In this document: in pieces, positions 10,920 through 17,084 of the stretch | Position numbering within the stretch: position 1 is the first letter of the stretch | Layout of the letters: each line of letters starts with the position of its first letter | Source: an uncultured Acidobacteriia bacterium | GTDB taxonomy: Bacteria > Acidobacteriota > Terriglobia > Bryobacterales > Bryobacteraceae | DNA length: 64,000 bases | Direction: 5' to 3' | Assembly (NCBI GenBank): GCA_903875575.1 | Contig: CAIQWJ010000097.1 | Coordinates: forward strand, 62,001-126,000 | The notes under the pieces: model-generated | Database searches by the model: none | Told to the model about the DNA's origin: nothing | The model's input: the letters and a program-made list of their open reading frames with translations, nothing else | Made by a program: the position numbers and the translations under genes

Positions 10920-11025
10920 GCAAATCCACTGCCCGTTTTTGCCTCACCTCATGGCAAAGATCCTAACACGGACTATTTCTGTCCGCGATCATCTGATACA
11001 ATCGAATTGCAACTGAGTTGCTGCT

Positions 11026-12285
11026 ATGTTCCAGACATTCGTGATCACATTGCGAGAGGGTGTCGAGGCCGCGCTGGTCATCGCCATCGCCATCGCCTAC
11101 GTGAAGCGAATCGGCAGGCTGGACCTGCTGCCGGCAGTCTACCGGGGCCTCTTAAGTGCTGTGATTGCCAGCTTTGTGGCAGCCTGGGGCTTCGCCAGGA
11201 TCGACCTGAACGTGGACGCGTATGAGGGCTGGGTGCTGCTGGTCAGCGCCGCTTTTGTCCTCTCTATGGTCATCTGGATGAACCGCCACGGCGCGCACAT
11301 TAAAAGTGAAATTGAAACTGGGTTGCAAAAAGGTACATCGGGCGGGGCCGGTGCTTTGGGGGTTTTCGCCTTCGTTTTTCTGATGATCTTCCGGGAGGGC
11401 GTGGAGACGGTTTTGCTGCTCGCCGCGCTTCGATTGGACACGTCCGGCATTCTGGAAGGATTGGGTGCCGCCGCCGGAATCGGCCTCGCCGTCCTGTTCG
11501 GCGTCAGTTTTGTACGAGGCACCATTCGCGTCAATCTGCGGCAGTTCTTCCGCATGACGACCGTCATCCTGATGGTGGTGGTCGCGCAACTTGGCATCAC
11601 CGGTCTGCACGAACTTTCTGAAAGCCAGATTCTGCCCAGCAGCAGCGGCGAGATGGCAGTCATCGGACCGATCGTGAAAAACGATGTCTTCTTTTTCATC
11701 ACCATCCTGGCGATGGTGGCGGCCATGGTGCTGCTGGAATGGCGGGGCCGCAGCTTACCCAGGACCGACGGACTGCAGGGTGCGGCCCGGCGCAAGGTTC
11801 TCTGGACCGCCCGCCGTGAGCGCTTGTGGATGATCGCGGCGTGTACCGCGTCCTCACTCTTTATCGTGCTGATCACGGCAGAATTTATTTATGCGCGGCA
11901 ACTGACGGAACTCTCGACGGCGAAGCCGGTGGTTTTTGAAAATGCGGCGGTGCGCATCCCGGTGAGTTCCGTGAACGACGGCAATCTGCATCGTTTCGTG
12001 ATTGCAGATCAGGGCGTGGATGTTCGGTTCATCGTGATTGCGAAACCCGACCGCAGTCTTGCTGTGGCCTATGACGCCTGCGCGATTTGCGGCGCGAAAG
12101 GCTACTACCAGAAGGGCCACGAAGTCATCTGCCGCAACTGCGCTTCCAATATCGTAATTTCGAGCATAGGAACAGGCGGCGGTTGCAATCCGATCCCCCT
12201 CAAATCGCATATTGAAGGCGCAACGCTGGTGATTGACGAAGCGGCGTTTGAGCCCGGCGTCGCAAAGGTATTCCGCAATGGCTAA
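11026..12285 (+). CDS. FTR1-type iron permease fused to a DUF2318 cysteine-rich domain
   Basis: The 419-residue membrane protein has two REGxE iron-binding motifs of the FTR1 family, REGVEA at 10-15 and REGVET at 123-128, in a seven-helix permease (residues 1-250). A further membrane segment leads into a C-terminal domain with CAIC...CRNC pairs and GGGCNPIP, typical of DUF2318 iron-handling proteins. In Campylobacter-type iron systems these are separate genes; here they are one chain. Two FtsX-like permeases and an ABC ATPase follow, so it likely imports iron across the inner membrane. A small inverted repeat (GCAAC-TGA-GTTGC, 11009-11021) sits just before the start. Confidence 0.88.
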   Translation: MFQTFVITLREGVEAALVIAIAIAYVKRIGRLDLLPAVYRGLLSAVIASFVAAWGFARIDLNVDAYEGWVLLVSAAFVLSMVIWMNRHGAHIKSEIETGLQKGTSGGAGALGVFAFVFLMIFREGVETVLLLAALRLDTSGILEGLGAAAGIGLAVLFGVSFVRGTIRVNLRQFFRMTTVILMVVVAQLGITGLHELSESQILPSSSGEMAVIGPIVKNDVFFFITILAMVAAMVLLEWRGRSLPRTDGLQGAARRKVLWTARRERLWMIAACTASSLFIVLITAEFIYARQLTELSTAKPVVFENAAVRIPVSSVNDGNLHRFVIADQGVDVRFIVIAKPDRSLAVAYDACAICGAKGYYQKGHEVICRNCASNIVISSIGTGGGCNPIPLKSHIEGATLVIDEAAFEPGVAKVFRNG

Positions 12286-12312: not shown

Positions 12313-13530
12313 ATGATTGTCCGCTTCGTTCGCGATTCCATTCGACGCTCGCCCCGGCGCAAGGCGCTCATCATCACCGCCATCGCGCTCGGCACCGCGG
12401 TTGCCACGGCGATGCTTGGCGTCATGCTGTCCATCGGCGACAAGATCAATCTGGAATTGCGCGCCGCGGGCGCGAATATTGTGGTCACCCCGCAGGCCGC
12501 CGCGCTGACTGGCGGCGCGGGAGGTGTCACTACCGCGGTCTCCGGCCCGTCCAGCGACATCCAGGAAGCTCTGGTGCCCAACGTGAAGAAAATCTTCTGG
12601 GCGCTGAATATCACCGGCTATGCGCCTTCGCTGCTGGCGCATGATGGCCCGCTCACGCTCGAAGGCGTCTCGTTCGCAGCCGACGCCCCGGGCATCCGGT
12701 CGGTTAATCTCTCATGGCAGTTGAAGCAGGGCCGCTGGGCAGAGGCTCCCGGTGATTGTATGATCGGTGCCGGCCTCGCGCGGCGTAACAACTGGGCCAC
12801 CGGTCGCGATATCAACGTCCTTGGCGAAGCCTGCCATATTGCTGGTGTCGTTTCCTCCGGCGACGAAGCGGACGACCGCGTGCTCCTCCCGCTGGCCCGC
12901 CTGCAGCAACTGCTGCATAAGCCCGGCGTAGTCGATCGCATCGACGTGGCCGCTCTCACCAAACCGGAAGACGACTTTGCGCGCAAAGATCCGAAAACCA
13001 TGACGGCGAAGGAATTTGAGCGCTGGGACTGCACGAACTACGTCACCTCCATCGCGCATCAGATTCAGGAAGCGATCCCCGGCACTGACGCGCGCCCGGT
13101 TCGGCGCGTGGCGGATTCCGAGGGTAAAATTCTGGACAAGATCAGCGGTCTGATGGCGCTCATCACGCTGGCCGCGCTGCTTTCCGCCGGGCTTACGGTG
13201 TGGAGCCTGACTGCAACCACCATGATGGAGCGGCGCGGCGAGATAGCGATCATGCAGGCCATTGGCGGCGCGCGCTGGCTGGTGGCGACCATTCTCGGTT
13301 CTGAGATTGCGCTGATCGGATTGGCGGGTGGAATCATCGGTGCGTTTGGGGGCGTGTGGCTGGCGCACCTTGTGGGCGAGTCCGTGTTTCACGACACCAT
13401 CGAGATCTCCTGGATCCTGCCATTTCTCATCATGCTGGCGGCGATGCTGGTAGCGCTGGCAGGTGCCGCGCAGCCGCTGCGGCGCGCGCTCCGCCTGGAA
13501 CCTGCCGTCATTCTGCGGGAGGGCATCTAA
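12313..13530 (+). CDS. FtsX/MacB-like ABC permease of the iron operon (first)
   Basis: The 405-residue protein has one N-terminal membrane helix after a basic start (RRSPRRKALIITAIALG), a large extracytoplasmic MacB-like domain (about residues 50-270), and three C-terminal helices ending in a PLRRALRLEPAVILREG tail, the standard FtsX-family layout. It belongs with the next gene and the ATPase at 14614. Homologous pairs accompany P19/FTR1 iron uptake in other bacteria, where they are thought to process periplasmic iron. That role is carried over from the family. Confidence 0.82.
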   Translation: MIVRFVRDSIRRSPRRKALIITAIALGTAVATAMLGVMLSIGDKINLELRAAGANIVVTPQAAALTGGAGGVTTAVSGPSSDIQEALVPNVKKIFWALNITGYAPSLLAHDGPLTLEGVSFAADAPGIRSVNLSWQLKQGRWAEAPGDCMIGAGLARRNNWATGRDINVLGEACHIAGVVSSGDEADDRVLLPLARLQQLLHKPGVVDRIDVAALTKPEDDFARKDPKTMTAKEFERWDCTNYVTSIAHQIQEAIPGTDARPVRRVADSEGKILDKISGLMALITLAALLSAGLTVWSLTATTMMERRGEIAIMQAIGGARWLVATILGSEIALIGLAGGIIGAFGGVWLAHLVGESVFHDTIEISWILPFLIMLAAMLVALAGAAQPLRRALRLEPAVILREGI

Positions 13531-13536
13531 GTCCGC

Positions 13537-14610
13537 ATGCCAGCGCGTTTTTTCATTCGCTTCAGCCTGAGCGCGCTGCGTTACCGCAAACAGAGACTGC
13601 TCCTGGCGTTCGGCGCGCTAACCGTAGCGGCCGCGCTTGCCACTGTCATGTTTGGCATCTATGCCACCGTCACGAAACGAATTCGCGACGAGTTTCAAAG
13701 TTATGGCGCGAACCTGGTTGCGGTTGCCGTCAACGGCGGCACTGTGCCGCTCGCGATTGTGGACGCGGCCAAACAAGCAGGCGCGCGCGCCACTCCGTTG
13801 CTGGTCACCAGCGGCCATGTTGGAGGCCGCGCCATCCCTGTGGCGGGTCTGCTGACTGGCTACCCCTACTGGCATGTGCAGGGCGATAGTGCTATTGCGC
13901 CCGGCAAATGCCTCGCCGGCGAAGCCCTCGCGACGCAGTTCGATCTAAAGCTCAACGCCACTGTGGCACTGGAAGGCCAGCCCTGCATGCTTTCCGGCAT
14001 TCTCTCCACCGGCGGCGCGGAAGATGGCGAACTTATCGTCCCGTTTGCCGCCGCCGCTGCTTTGTCCGGCATCCATGAAGCAGCCAGTGTGATTGAAATT
14101 CAGGCTCCGGGAGACCAACTGGAAGCGATTCGCGCGTCACTTGCCGGGCAGTTTCCCGCAGCTGACTTGCGAACCGTGCGCGCCGTCGCAGGCACGGAAT
14201 CCAACGTGATTGTGAAAATGCGCGCGGCGCTGCTGCTGCTCACTCTGCTGATCCTGGTCATCACTACCCTGTGCGTGACCAGCAACTTCAGCGAAATGGT
14301 CATCGACCGCGCGAAAGAGATCGGCATCATGAAAGCGCTGGGCGGCGCGGAACAACGCATCGCGGCTTTCTTTCTTTCGGAATCGGCAACGCTGGCGATT
14401 CTCGCCACCGTGATCGGCTATCTCTGCGGAGTCCTTGCAGCAGCCGGCATTGGACGCGAAATCTTCGGCGGTGTCTTCCGCCTGCAACTCGACTGGCAGG
14501 TGCTGGCGGGCGTGGGCGGCGTGATGCTGCTGGTTTCCACCGTCGCCACGGCCATTGCCACCGCGCGCATCTGGAATATCCAGCCGGCGGTTATCCTGAG
14601 GGGTGAGTAA
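13537..14610 (+). CDS. FtsX/MacB-like ABC permease of the iron operon (second)
   Basis: The 357-residue partner of the preceding permease shares the same plan: N-terminal helix, MacB-like outer domain, and three C-terminal helices with MVIDRAKEIGIMKALGG before the last two and a final IQPAVILRGE. It starts 6 bases after its neighbour and ends 3 bases before the ATPase start, so the three genes are tightly coupled. A heterodimeric transporter is the natural reading. Confidence 0.82.
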   Translation: MPARFFIRFSLSALRYRKQRLLLAFGALTVAAALATVMFGIYATVTKRIRDEFQSYGANLVAVAVNGGTVPLAIVDAAKQAGARATPLLVTSGHVGGRAIPVAGLLTGYPYWHVQGDSAIAPGKCLAGEALATQFDLKLNATVALEGQPCMLSGILSTGGAEDGELIVPFAAAAALSGIHEAASVIEIQAPGDQLEAIRASLAGQFPAADLRTVRAVAGTESNVIVKMRAALLLLTLLILVITTLCVTSNFSEMVIDRAKEIGIMKALGGAEQRIAAFFLSESATLAILATVIGYLCGVLAAAGIGREIFGGVFRLQLDWQVLAGVGGVMLLVSTVATAIATARIWNIQPAVILRGE

Positions 14611-14613
14611 CGC

Positions 14614-15747
14614 ATGAGTATTCTGATCGAGTTGATTGGCGTGAGTAAGACCTACGGCGAAGGCACGGCTGCCGTGCGCGCGGTGGATAACGTCAACTTT
14701 ACCGCCCACAGCGGCGAATGGATCGCCATCATGGGGCCTTCCGGTTCCGGCAAGACCACGCTGCTCAATCTCATCGGCTGTCTGGATCAGGCCACCAGTG
14801 GGCAGTTGCTGATCGGCGGCACCGATACGTCGAAGCTCACTCGCAGCGAACTCGTCCGGTTCCGCAGCGAAACGGTTGGTTTCATCTTCCAGCAGTTCCA
14901 TCTGGTGCCGCATCTCACCGCGCTGGAAAACGTGATGCTCGCGCAGTTCTTCCACAGCATGACCGACGAAAAGGAAGCTCTTGAAGCCCTCCGCCAGGTG
15001 GACCTGGCAGACCGCGCCACGCACCTCCCTTCGCAGCTTTCCGGCGGTGAGCAGCAGCGCGTCGCCATAGCCCGTGCGCTGGTCAACGATCCGAAAATCA
15101 TTCTGGCCGACGAGCCCACCGGCAACCTGGACGCCGAAAACCAGCGCGTAGTGTTCGACCTTTTGAGCCGCCTGCATGGCGAAGGCCGCACTATCGTCAT
15201 GGTGACGCACGACGAAAACGCCGGTAAGCTGGCCGATCGTCGCGTGCATCTGGAACACGGCCGCATCAAGGAACTGCTGGTCTTCTCCGCCGAAGAGAAT
15301 CAGGATTTCGACGAAGTTCTGGAGCATCTCTGGACGCGCGGCGAACCGGGTGGCCATGTAGAGTCCCACAGCTTCACCGCAGTGCAATGGCGCAAGCTGC
15401 TGAACACCATGGCGGGGATTGGGCTGGTGACCGTAACCAACGGCGAAGGACTGTTCACCGCGAAGGGCGAGGCCCGGGCGCGCGACGTGATTCGCCGCCA
15501 TCGTCTGGCCGAACGTTTGTTCCGAGACGTGCTGGGAATTCACGATGAAGCCGAGATTGAGGCCAGCGCCTGCAAGTTCGAACATATTCTCAGCCCGGAA
15601 GTGACCGACCGCATGTGTTCCCTGCTCGGCCACCCGGACGCCTGCCCGCACGGCAGCCTGATCCCGCGCGGCCCGTGCTGCGGGGAAAAGCGGGTGCTCG
15701 ATTCCGCCGAAGCGCAAAGCATCCTTTCCGGCATCAAAGGCATCTGA
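14614..15747 (+). CDS. ABC ATPase fused to a complete DtxR-like metal-sensing module
   Basis: Residues 1-222 are a LolD/MacB-type ATPase: Walker [10 protein letters not shown] (41-49), signature LSGGEQ (142-147), Walker B ILADEP (163-168). Residues about 228-377 are not ABC sequence. They read as a DtxR/MntR-type regulator, with a winged-helix segment (about 230-290) followed by H296, E300, C320, E323 and H324 in RRHRLAE and [12 protein letters not shown], plus HPDACPHG. These match the known DtxR metal ligands, except that one ligand position appears to be Glu. The fusion suggests metal-responsive control of the pump, DNA binding by the pump, or both. Confidence 0.85.
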
Positions 15748-15767: not shown

Positions 15768-16691
15768 ATGCATAACGTCGTCATCATCGGTTCCGGTTGC
15801 GCCGGAAATACCGCGGCAGTTTACACTGCGCGCGCCGGCCTGAAGCCTCTTGTCATTAAGGGTCTGGAAGTGGGCGGCCAGCTCTCTCTGACCACGGAAG
15901 TGGAGAATTTCCCCGGCTTCCCGGAGGGCATCAACGGCCCGGATCTGGTGGAAAACATCAAGAAGCAGGCCGAGCGTTTCGGGGCCGTCTACCAGGAAGG
16001 CGAAGTGACGGAAGCGGATCTTTCAAAGCGTCCTTTCCGTCTGAAGATCGATAACGAGTGGATCGAAACCCGCACCCTGATTGTGGCTTCCGGCGCGAAA
16101 GCGCGCTGGCTGGATCTGCCTTCCGAACAGAAGCTCATCGGCCACGGCGTCAGTTCCTGCGCCACCTGCGACGGCTTCTTCTATCGCGACAAACAGATCA
16201 TGGTGGTGGGCGGCGGCGATTCCGCCATGGAAGAGGCCAACTTTCTCACACGCTTCGGCCGCAACGTGGCGCTGGTGCATCGGCGGGATACGTTTCGCGC
16301 TTCGAAGATCATGCTGGACCGCGCGAAGGCCAACCCGAAGATCGAGTTCATTATGAACACGGCGATCGAAGAGGTTTTCGATCTGGAGCAGAACATCGTC
16401 ACCAGTGTGCGGCTGATCAATCTGGTCACCGGCGAAACGCAGATGCGCGATGTGGACGGCCTGTTCATCGCGATTGGGCATATCCCGAATACACAGGTTT
16501 TCAAAGGCCAGCTGGCTCTGGATCCCGATGGCTACCTGCTCTCCACGGGCGGCGCGCGTACCAGCGTTCCCGGCGTTTTCCATGCGGGCGACGTGCAGGA
16601 TCGCGTTTACCGCCAGGCCATTACGGCTGCGGGTGCGGGTTGCATGGCGGCGATTGAAGTGGAGCGTTTACTCGAAGCGGAAGGACACTAA
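15768..16691 (+). CDS. trxB: Thioredoxin reductase
   Basis: From the ATG at 15768 the protein has 307 residues, the family length. An open stretch upstream overlaps the ABC gene and is not needed. FAD-binding GSGCAGNTAAVYTAR starts at residue 8, the redox-active CATCDG is at C131/C134, and the NADPH fold reads VVGGGDSAMEE. It reduces thioredoxin using NADPH. It lies 20 bases after the iron operon and may be read through from it. The closing HAGDVQDRVYRQAITAA segment is typical. Confidence 0.95.
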   Translation: MHNVVIIGSGCAGNTAAVYTARAGLKPLVIKGLEVGGQLSLTTEVENFPGFPEGINGPDLVENIKKQAERFGAVYQEGEVTEADLSKRPFRLKIDNEWIETRTLIVASGAKARWLDLPSEQKLIGHGVSSCATCDGFFYRDKQIMVVGGGDSAMEEANFLTRFGRNVALVHRRDTFRASKIMLDRAKANPKIEFIMNTAIEEVFDLEQNIVTSVRLINLVTGETQMRDVDGLFIAIGHIPNTQVFKGQLALDPDGYLLSTGGARTSVPGVFHAGDVQDRVYRQAITAAGAGCMAAIEVERLLEAEGH

Positions 16692-16697
16692 AAAGAC

Positions 16698-17084
16698 ATG
16701 ATTGAACGCCTCTCACCTCCCGGCATTCCGGCCCCGCGCGGTCCGTACTCACCGGCTGTTCGCGCCGGCGATTTCATTTTTGTGTCAGGCCAGGTGCCGG
16801 TGGATCCCGCCACGAATCAGATGTCGAACGGCGACATTCAGCATGAGACGCGGATGACGCTGAATAACCTGAAGCTCGTGCTGGAAGGCGCGGGTGCCAC
16901 GCTGGCGGATGTAGTGCGGGTCGGCGTGTATCTGAAGAATGGCGCGGACTTTCCCGCGATGAACGAGGTCTACTCGGAATACTTTGGCGACGCCAAACCG
17001 GCGCGGTCCACTATTGTGTGCGGCTTCTTCGCAGATATCAAAGTGGAAATCGACTGCGTGGCTTATAAGCCGAAGTCGGCGTAG
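16698..17084 (+). CDS. ridA: RidA-family reactive intermediate deaminase
   Basis: The 128-residue protein has the RidA/YjgF pattern GPYSPAVRAGDFIFVSGQ near residue 15, NLKLVLEGAGATLADVV mid-protein and the arginine of PARSTIV that holds the substrate carboxylate. RidA hydrolyses reactive enamine/imine intermediates from PLP enzymes in the cytosol. It begins 6 bases after trxB and is probably cotranscribed with it. Confidence 0.93.
   Translation: MIERLSPPGIPAPRGPYSPAVRAGDFIFVSGQVPVDPATNQMSNGDIQHETRMTLNNLKLVLEGAGATLADVVRVGVYLKNGADFPAMNEVYSEYFGDAKPARSTIVCGFFADIKVEIDCVAYKPKSA

Follow-up and report, generated by a model that had tools for sequence, protein, structure and literature searches.

A Fet-type ABC transporter ATPase fused to a DtxR-derived metal-binding module: a possible feedback switch on bacterial iron uptake

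Six genes lie in a row on one strand of the window, the 64,000-nt stretch of DNA that was analysed here and to which all coordinates refer unless a locus (Lnnn) is named. The first gene encodes an FTR1 iron permease fused to an FtrD-like (DUF2318) domain (11026..12285(+); PF03239 E 4.6e-35, PF10080 E 1.8e-28) and is followed by genes for two FtsX/MacB-type permeases that are FetB/FetC-like (12313..13530(+), PF12704 E 3.1e-15 and PF02687 E 1.5e-14; 13537..14610(+), PF02687 E 9.8e-14 and PF12704 E 2.2e-9). The fourth gene (14614..15747(+)) encodes a FetD-like ABC ATPase fused to a DtxR-derived module and is the subject of this report. The last two encode a thioredoxin-reductase-like (TrxB-like) flavoprotein (15768..16691(+), PF07992 E 7.5e-48) and a RidA-family protein whose membership of the system is unsure (16698..17084(+), PF01042 E 8e-33); each has a relative in 11 of the 13 related loci. 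FTR1, DUF2318/FtrD, two permeases and an ATPase together in a single operon constitute a Fet-type set, which bears out the iron-uptake operon proposed in an initial annotation of this DNA. Neither the P19 periplasmic protein (PF10634) nor FeoB_C was matched in the window's genome, and we infer that the Fet-type operon is a main iron importer of this organism. Its relatives place this genome close to the Bryobacterales of the Acidobacteriota. The genome contains one further PF02742 protein, an ordinary DtxR with an intact helix-turn-helix (HTH) and a FeoA domain.

The fused protein is encoded by a single ORF of 377 amino acids. A Pfam search placed ABC_tran (PF00005) at residues 25-169 with an E-value of 8.9e-37 and Fe_dep_repr_C (PF02742) at residues 282-352 with an E-value of 1.1e-24 (86.6 bits, the cut-off being 27). 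The ATPase part (residues 1-221, 14614..15276(+)) contains Walker A, signature and Walker B motifs as well as H199, none of which varies among 11 aligned fusions. The top NCBIfam match of this half is LolD (E 7.1e-66), yet it scores under the LolD equivalog model's own cut-off. Judged by its motifs, the nucleotide-binding domain is complete and belongs to the LolD/MacB type of ABC ATPases, in agreement with the initial annotation. The rest of the protein comprises what is probably left of the DtxR winged helix-turn-helix (residues 226-282, 15289..15459(+)) and a predicted metal-binding/dimerisation domain (residues 283-356, 15460..15681(+)) that includes C335, C344, C355 and C356. The FeoA/SH3-like C-terminal domain (PF04023) of iron-responsive DtxR members gave no Pfam match in the fusion. 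A predicted model of the full-length protein was too weak (pLDDT 50) for the position of the tail relative to the ATPase to be read from it.

A scan of species genomes determined that the ATPase and tail are fused in a single frame in 13 of 13 related contigs, one of which (L014) is cut by the contig end. Both halves are under purifying selection; the dN/dS values of five pairs ranged from 0.029 to 0.090 for the ATPase and from 0.016 to 0.067 for the metal domain, and are rough because dS was about 1 or more. The in-frame fusion in every related contig together with purifying selection on both halves rules out chance, a frameshift or a mis-assembly as the origin of this gene. Two loci, L012 (5437-7002(+)) and L005 (1-1191(+)), look chimeric at the ATPase end, probably as a result of binning or assembly errors, and were therefore not counted as separate evidence where the ATPase half is concerned. 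L012 is labelled Xanthobacteraceae, but its tail groups with those of Bryobacterales.

The fusion, whose spread the initial annotation had proposed to survey, was also present in 22 of 396 sampled Acidobacteriota genomes. Of 150 genomes of the window's order, 15 gave a match of 157-173 bits, and the other matches listed all fall below 78 bits. Of the 396 genomes, 208 gave a match of some kind at E up to 0.001, many of these being ordinary DtxR proteins, and 69 copies at 81 bits or more were found in 67 genomes. In both of these whole-genome searches, and in the one by FtrD domain described below, a limited number of first-look candidates was scored per genome and absences are accordingly soft. 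The 68 copies outside the window were fetched and can be divided into two groups, 21 that are fused to an ATPase and 47 standalone proteins that all carry a FeoA domain. FTR1, FtrD and FtsX genes lie alongside all 21 fused copies on the same strand. The standalone copies are encoded closely downstream of feoB in 43 of 47 cases; of the remaining four, L100 and L104 are at or near a contig end and L058 and L090 are not. A second FeoA-like ORF was not found in any of the 47 standalone stretches. Two genomes have both forms, G132 (L063 and L064) and G377 (L074 and L075). On the minus strand of L040 (genome G278), a reading frame containing multiple CxxC pairs lies near the FeoB-linked standalone gene and perhaps encodes a small cysteine-rich protein.

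In a tree of 93 domains, the tails form a clade apart from ten other DtxR proteins (SH-aLRT 97%). The fused copies correspond to one change of state on this tree, with a branch support of only 21 and many forks open. Beyond Acidobacteriota the survey covered a plasmid collection, where the best 20 of 67 records matching the standalone protein included one clear member, on a Pelobacter plasmid (149 bits), and 19 others at 77 bits or less. The Pelobacter gene lies 3' of feoB and is annotated as a 'metal-dependent transcriptional regulator', and it extends the clade beyond Acidobacteriota.

Fet operons that do not have the tail were also found. A further 20 loci were fetched by their FtrD domain. 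Six of these encode FtrD and a pair of FtsX permeases together with an ATPase, which continues past the ABC match for no more than 27 residues in five of them (L167-L170, L182) and for 47 in L179. In another five (L177, L178, L180, L184, L185), FtrD is accompanied by a single FtsX permease, and the ATPase runs on for no more than 24 residues past the match. Eight loci had no ATPase within the stretch, several being cut by contig ends. The remaining locus, L176 (7713-8741(+), genome G200), encodes a divergent ATPase-tail fusion in which the C-x-x-E-H ligand motif has been lost and the CPHG motif kept. An E. coli plasmid operon with the same gene order has an ATPase gene of 696 bp, in which the ATPase match stops 12 residues before the end of the frame. 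Other Fet ATPases thus stop where the tail starts, and the existence of tail-less Fet operons makes the tail an accessory, as is expected of a regulatory domain.

The initial annotation recognized a DtxR-type metal domain from the order of H296, E300, C320, E323 and H324, and its case depended on DtxR similarity within residues 225-377. Profile and structure searches both found that similarity, and the five residues align with the corresponding residues of the DtxR-family repressor PDB 7b1v. Conservation was counted over 83 aligned tails (35 fused and 48 standalone, the latter including the ordinary DtxR protein L109); C320, E323 and H324 are invariant, E300 is present in 82 and H296 in 77, position 296 being a glutamine in five of the 35 fused copies. 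The assignment of these aligned residues as ligands, and the DtxR and MntR residue numbers used here, are what we take to be the accepted ones. Three acidic residues that the initial annotation omitted also align with presumed ligand positions of the family. E316 (78 of 83 tails) occupies the position of DtxR H98 in the alignment, and E234 (80 of 83) and E237 (82 of 83) occupy the positions of DtxR M10 and MntR E11, with M10 replaced by E234; this last mapping is taken from the start points of structural alignments and assumes no gap in helix 1. A role for the tail as a putative metal sensor is supported by this homology. It is unlikely that the tail is instead a receiving site that accepts FTR1-imported iron in the cytosol and passes it on. 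A conserved ligand set on a protein of an iron permease operon would fit such an acceptor, as would the FeoB-linked copies, which likewise adjoin an iron channel, but some Fet operons manage without the tail, the tail is attached to the ATPase and not to the permease, and DtxR-type sites combined with dimerisation are features of a sensor.

Additionally, the tails share four cysteines that the initial annotation did not mention. C335, C355 and C356 are each present in 82 of 83 tails and C344 in 81, and together they could serve to coordinate a structural metal or an Fe-S cluster. If they were to form an Fe-S cluster or disulfides, the tail could report the redox state or oxygen rather than iron. 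The conservation of the cysteines is consistent with a redox switch, as are the TrxB-like gene that comes next in 11 of 13 related loci and the thioredoxins that belong to the Campylobacter system (PMC10783030). We consider this quite improbable all the same, as no TrxB-like gene turned up in the fused operons beyond the 13 related loci, and zinc would fit the cysteines equally well.

The helix-turn-helix seems to have been eroded while the metal-binding part was retained. The DtxR DNA-binding HTH (PF01325) was not matched in the fused protein of the window, even at E-values up to 1, and was matched in one of 29 clade members (at E 0.0019) compared to eight of nine other DtxR proteins of the phylum, the lone non-matching protein among these nine being L116. 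A model of residues 221-377, which is weak (pLDDT 59), has a helix at 226-242, a loop at the position of DtxR helix 2, a helix at 256-268, a wing and, in the metal domain, three helices. Comparison of this model with known structures listed 50 matches, all of them DtxR, IdeR, MntR and their kin (Z 10.7-13.1 over 103-123 residues), in listings that are made up of DtxR-like families and do not rule out other folds. The structure prediction called for in the initial annotation thus recovers a DtxR-like fold with the metal-domain helices, and its winged-helix segment stands as far as helix 1, the later helix and the wing are concerned, whereas helix 2 is not predicted.

The interval between W240 and G270 is 29 residues in the window protein compared to 35 in L109, a protein with the CPHG motif and an ordinary HTH that was excluded from the clade tree, the neighbourhood counts and the interval counts and included in the 83-tail position counts. 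Across the clade, 31 of 35 fused copies have an interval of 29-34 residues and 41 of 47 standalone copies one of 25-34. The interval is 36 or more, at least the length in the ordinary L109, in nine tails (four fused, five standalone), and a single interval of 12 residues, probably that of L101 with its stretch of only 99 residues, is unreliable. Positions 247-268 are variable or gapped over the 83 tails. What remains of the third helix is well conserved among Bryobacterales (FT and QW are invariant, and dN/dS is 0.017-0.124 for residues 245-268), which indicates that the remnant does something. The loss of the PF01325 match, the helix 2 missing from the model and the shortened HTH interval mean that an ordinary DtxR repressor that was merely fused to an ATPase is not favoured, and they weaken the 'repressor domain' and the coupling to transcription that the initial annotation had put forward.

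DtxR-like ORFs of another kind were also observed beside FeoB. L116 (6136-7290(+)) has PF02742 and FeoA, gave no match to PF01325, has no CPHG motif and adjoins an FeoB-like ORF, and L119, L121 and L123 likewise contain DtxR-like ORFs that do not have the CPHG motif and adjoin FeoB-like ORFs. These are possibly a second HTH-poor group beside FeoB.

Two operator-like repeats lie upstream of the operon. The first, GGAC-N7-GTCC (10970..10984), is the sole such inverted repeat in the window, and a similar repeat is present in six of eight related upstream regions printed. The second is the palindrome TTGCAACTGAGTTGC (11007..11021), which lies 5 bases before the FTR1 start codon and has 0 mismatches, with 0.08 expected in the window for up to 2 mismatches; its core is present in nine of ten related loci that hold the FTR1 start and is missing from L013. 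Presumably the first repeat resembles Rrf2/IscR-type sites and the second a Fur-type layout. The palindrome has one exact copy genome-wide, and since its near matches are not enriched in the genome (63 compared to 54 in the control) no regulon was drawn. By eye and unscored, repeats that we take to be Fur-box-like precede nine of 21 fused operons. Among 13 other loci printed they precede two, L169, which has no tail, and L183, which is incomplete. Since tailed and tail-less operons alike are preceded by operator-like repeats, transcription of the Fet operons is likely to be under the control of separate regulator proteins. The uniqueness of the palindrome in the genome still leaves room for self-regulation by the fused protein, in which case the tail would bind DNA and repress its own operon at high iron. 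This would accord with the DtxR fold recovered in the structure comparison, a palindrome confined to this operon and kept in nine of ten related loci, and the conserved third helix of Bryobacterales. We regard it as having a low probability because the PF01325 match is lost across the clade and helix 2 is absent from the model, the helix region is not conserved clade-wide, other fused operons have different repeats, and the genome already has an ordinary DtxR with its HTH intact.

The reading that we prefer, to which we give about even odds, is that a Fet-type motor ATPase has acquired a regulatory tail built from a DtxR-type iron sensor, which would act as a feedback switch on transport. The relatives of the tail adjoin a second, unrelated iron importer, so the tail probably throttles a transporter rather than a gene. 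Feedback from cytosolic iron would be the simplest account of why a predicted metal-binding and dimerising domain, its DNA-binding signature gone, is tied to the energy-coupling side of two different iron importers. The ATPase is expected to work as a pair, so that two tails would meet and could dimerise as in DtxR. At high cytosolic Fe(II), iron would fill the sensor site and fix the tails in one arrangement, and the fixed tails would hold the ATPase domains in an unproductive state and slow uptake (trans-inhibition). Where the sensor is joined to FeoA, as in the FeoB branch, it would feed back on the GTPase through the action of FeoA on FeoB. FeoA stabilises GTP-bound FeoB (PMC8980893), and a FeoA-linked sensor could therefore act on FeoB. 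The coupling of iron level to transport in the initial annotation is in this way upheld as a possibility.

Several observations count against feedback. These include Q296 in five of 35 fused copies, the nine long HTH intervals and L176, which does not have the ligand motif, as well as the conserved third-helix remnant in Bryobacterales, through which DNA could still be contacted. A palindrome that is unique in the genome, with near matches that are not enriched, also fits a dedicated regulator such as the fused protein. A repressor identity for the tail is not favoured from its sequence. A broader version of the feedback reading, which we hold somewhat more tentatively, is that a clade of DtxR repressors left DNA and became a transporter-borne iron sensor. 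This sensor, to which a metal site formed by cysteines was probably added, would control two unrelated importers post-translationally, by direct fusion in the case of the Fet ATPase and via FeoA in that of the FeoB GTPase.

If this is true, a transcriptional iron sensor was turned into a direct transport brake on two unrelated iron importers, and the feoB-adjacent genes annotated as 'metal-dependent transcriptional regulator' encode transporter subunits; such genes, the Pelobacter one for example, may be misnamed. It would also provide a handle on the restraint of FeoB uptake and on the role of the Fet ABC transporter, as PMC10783030 describes both what FetBCD does and what it transports as unclear. 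The ATPase-DtxR fusion on a Fet system and the HTH-eroded clade shared with FeoB appear to be new, the Fet operon type being already known; no description of an ABC-DtxR fusion or of HTH-less DtxR proteins beside FeoB was found in the titles and abstracts listed in searches of the open-access literature.

The tail shares the PF02742 domain, the ligand positions and the overall fold with the DtxR, IdeR and MntR repressors, but it has an eroded HTH and extra cysteines and is attached to an ATPase or encoded beside FeoB. The C. jejuni fetMP-fetABCDEF cluster encodes an FTR1 permease, P19, a DUF2318 protein, two permeases, an ATPase and two thioredoxins, and growth is impaired by disruption of fetA, fetB, fetC or fetD (PMC10783030; the cluster is also described in PMC6083913). 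The window operon has FTR1, FtrD/DUF2318, two permeases and the ATPase in common with this Fet (P19) system, and the E. coli plasmid operon has the same order. It differs in that FTR1 and FtrD are one protein, a TrxB-like protein takes the place of the thioredoxins, P19 was not found in the window's genome and the ATPase carries the DtxR-derived tail. FeoC is a winged-helix protein tied to FeoB for which DNA binding has not been demonstrated, and is said to be limited to gamma-proteobacteria (PMC7762939 and PMC10710835). The standalone relatives of the tail resemble FeoC in their winged-helix origin and their link to FeoB. To our knowledge, FeoC does not have a DtxR metal domain. In the trans-inhibited ABC importers MetN and ModC, a C-terminal domain (C2 in MetN) binds the substrate being transported, at the interface of the dimer, and halts the transport cycle (PMC10710835). 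The window tail has another fold, its permeases are of the FtsX/MacB type and not of the classical importer type, and feedback here is a proposal; as in MetN and ModC, what by homology would be a ligand-binding, dimerising domain is placed C-terminally on the ATPase.
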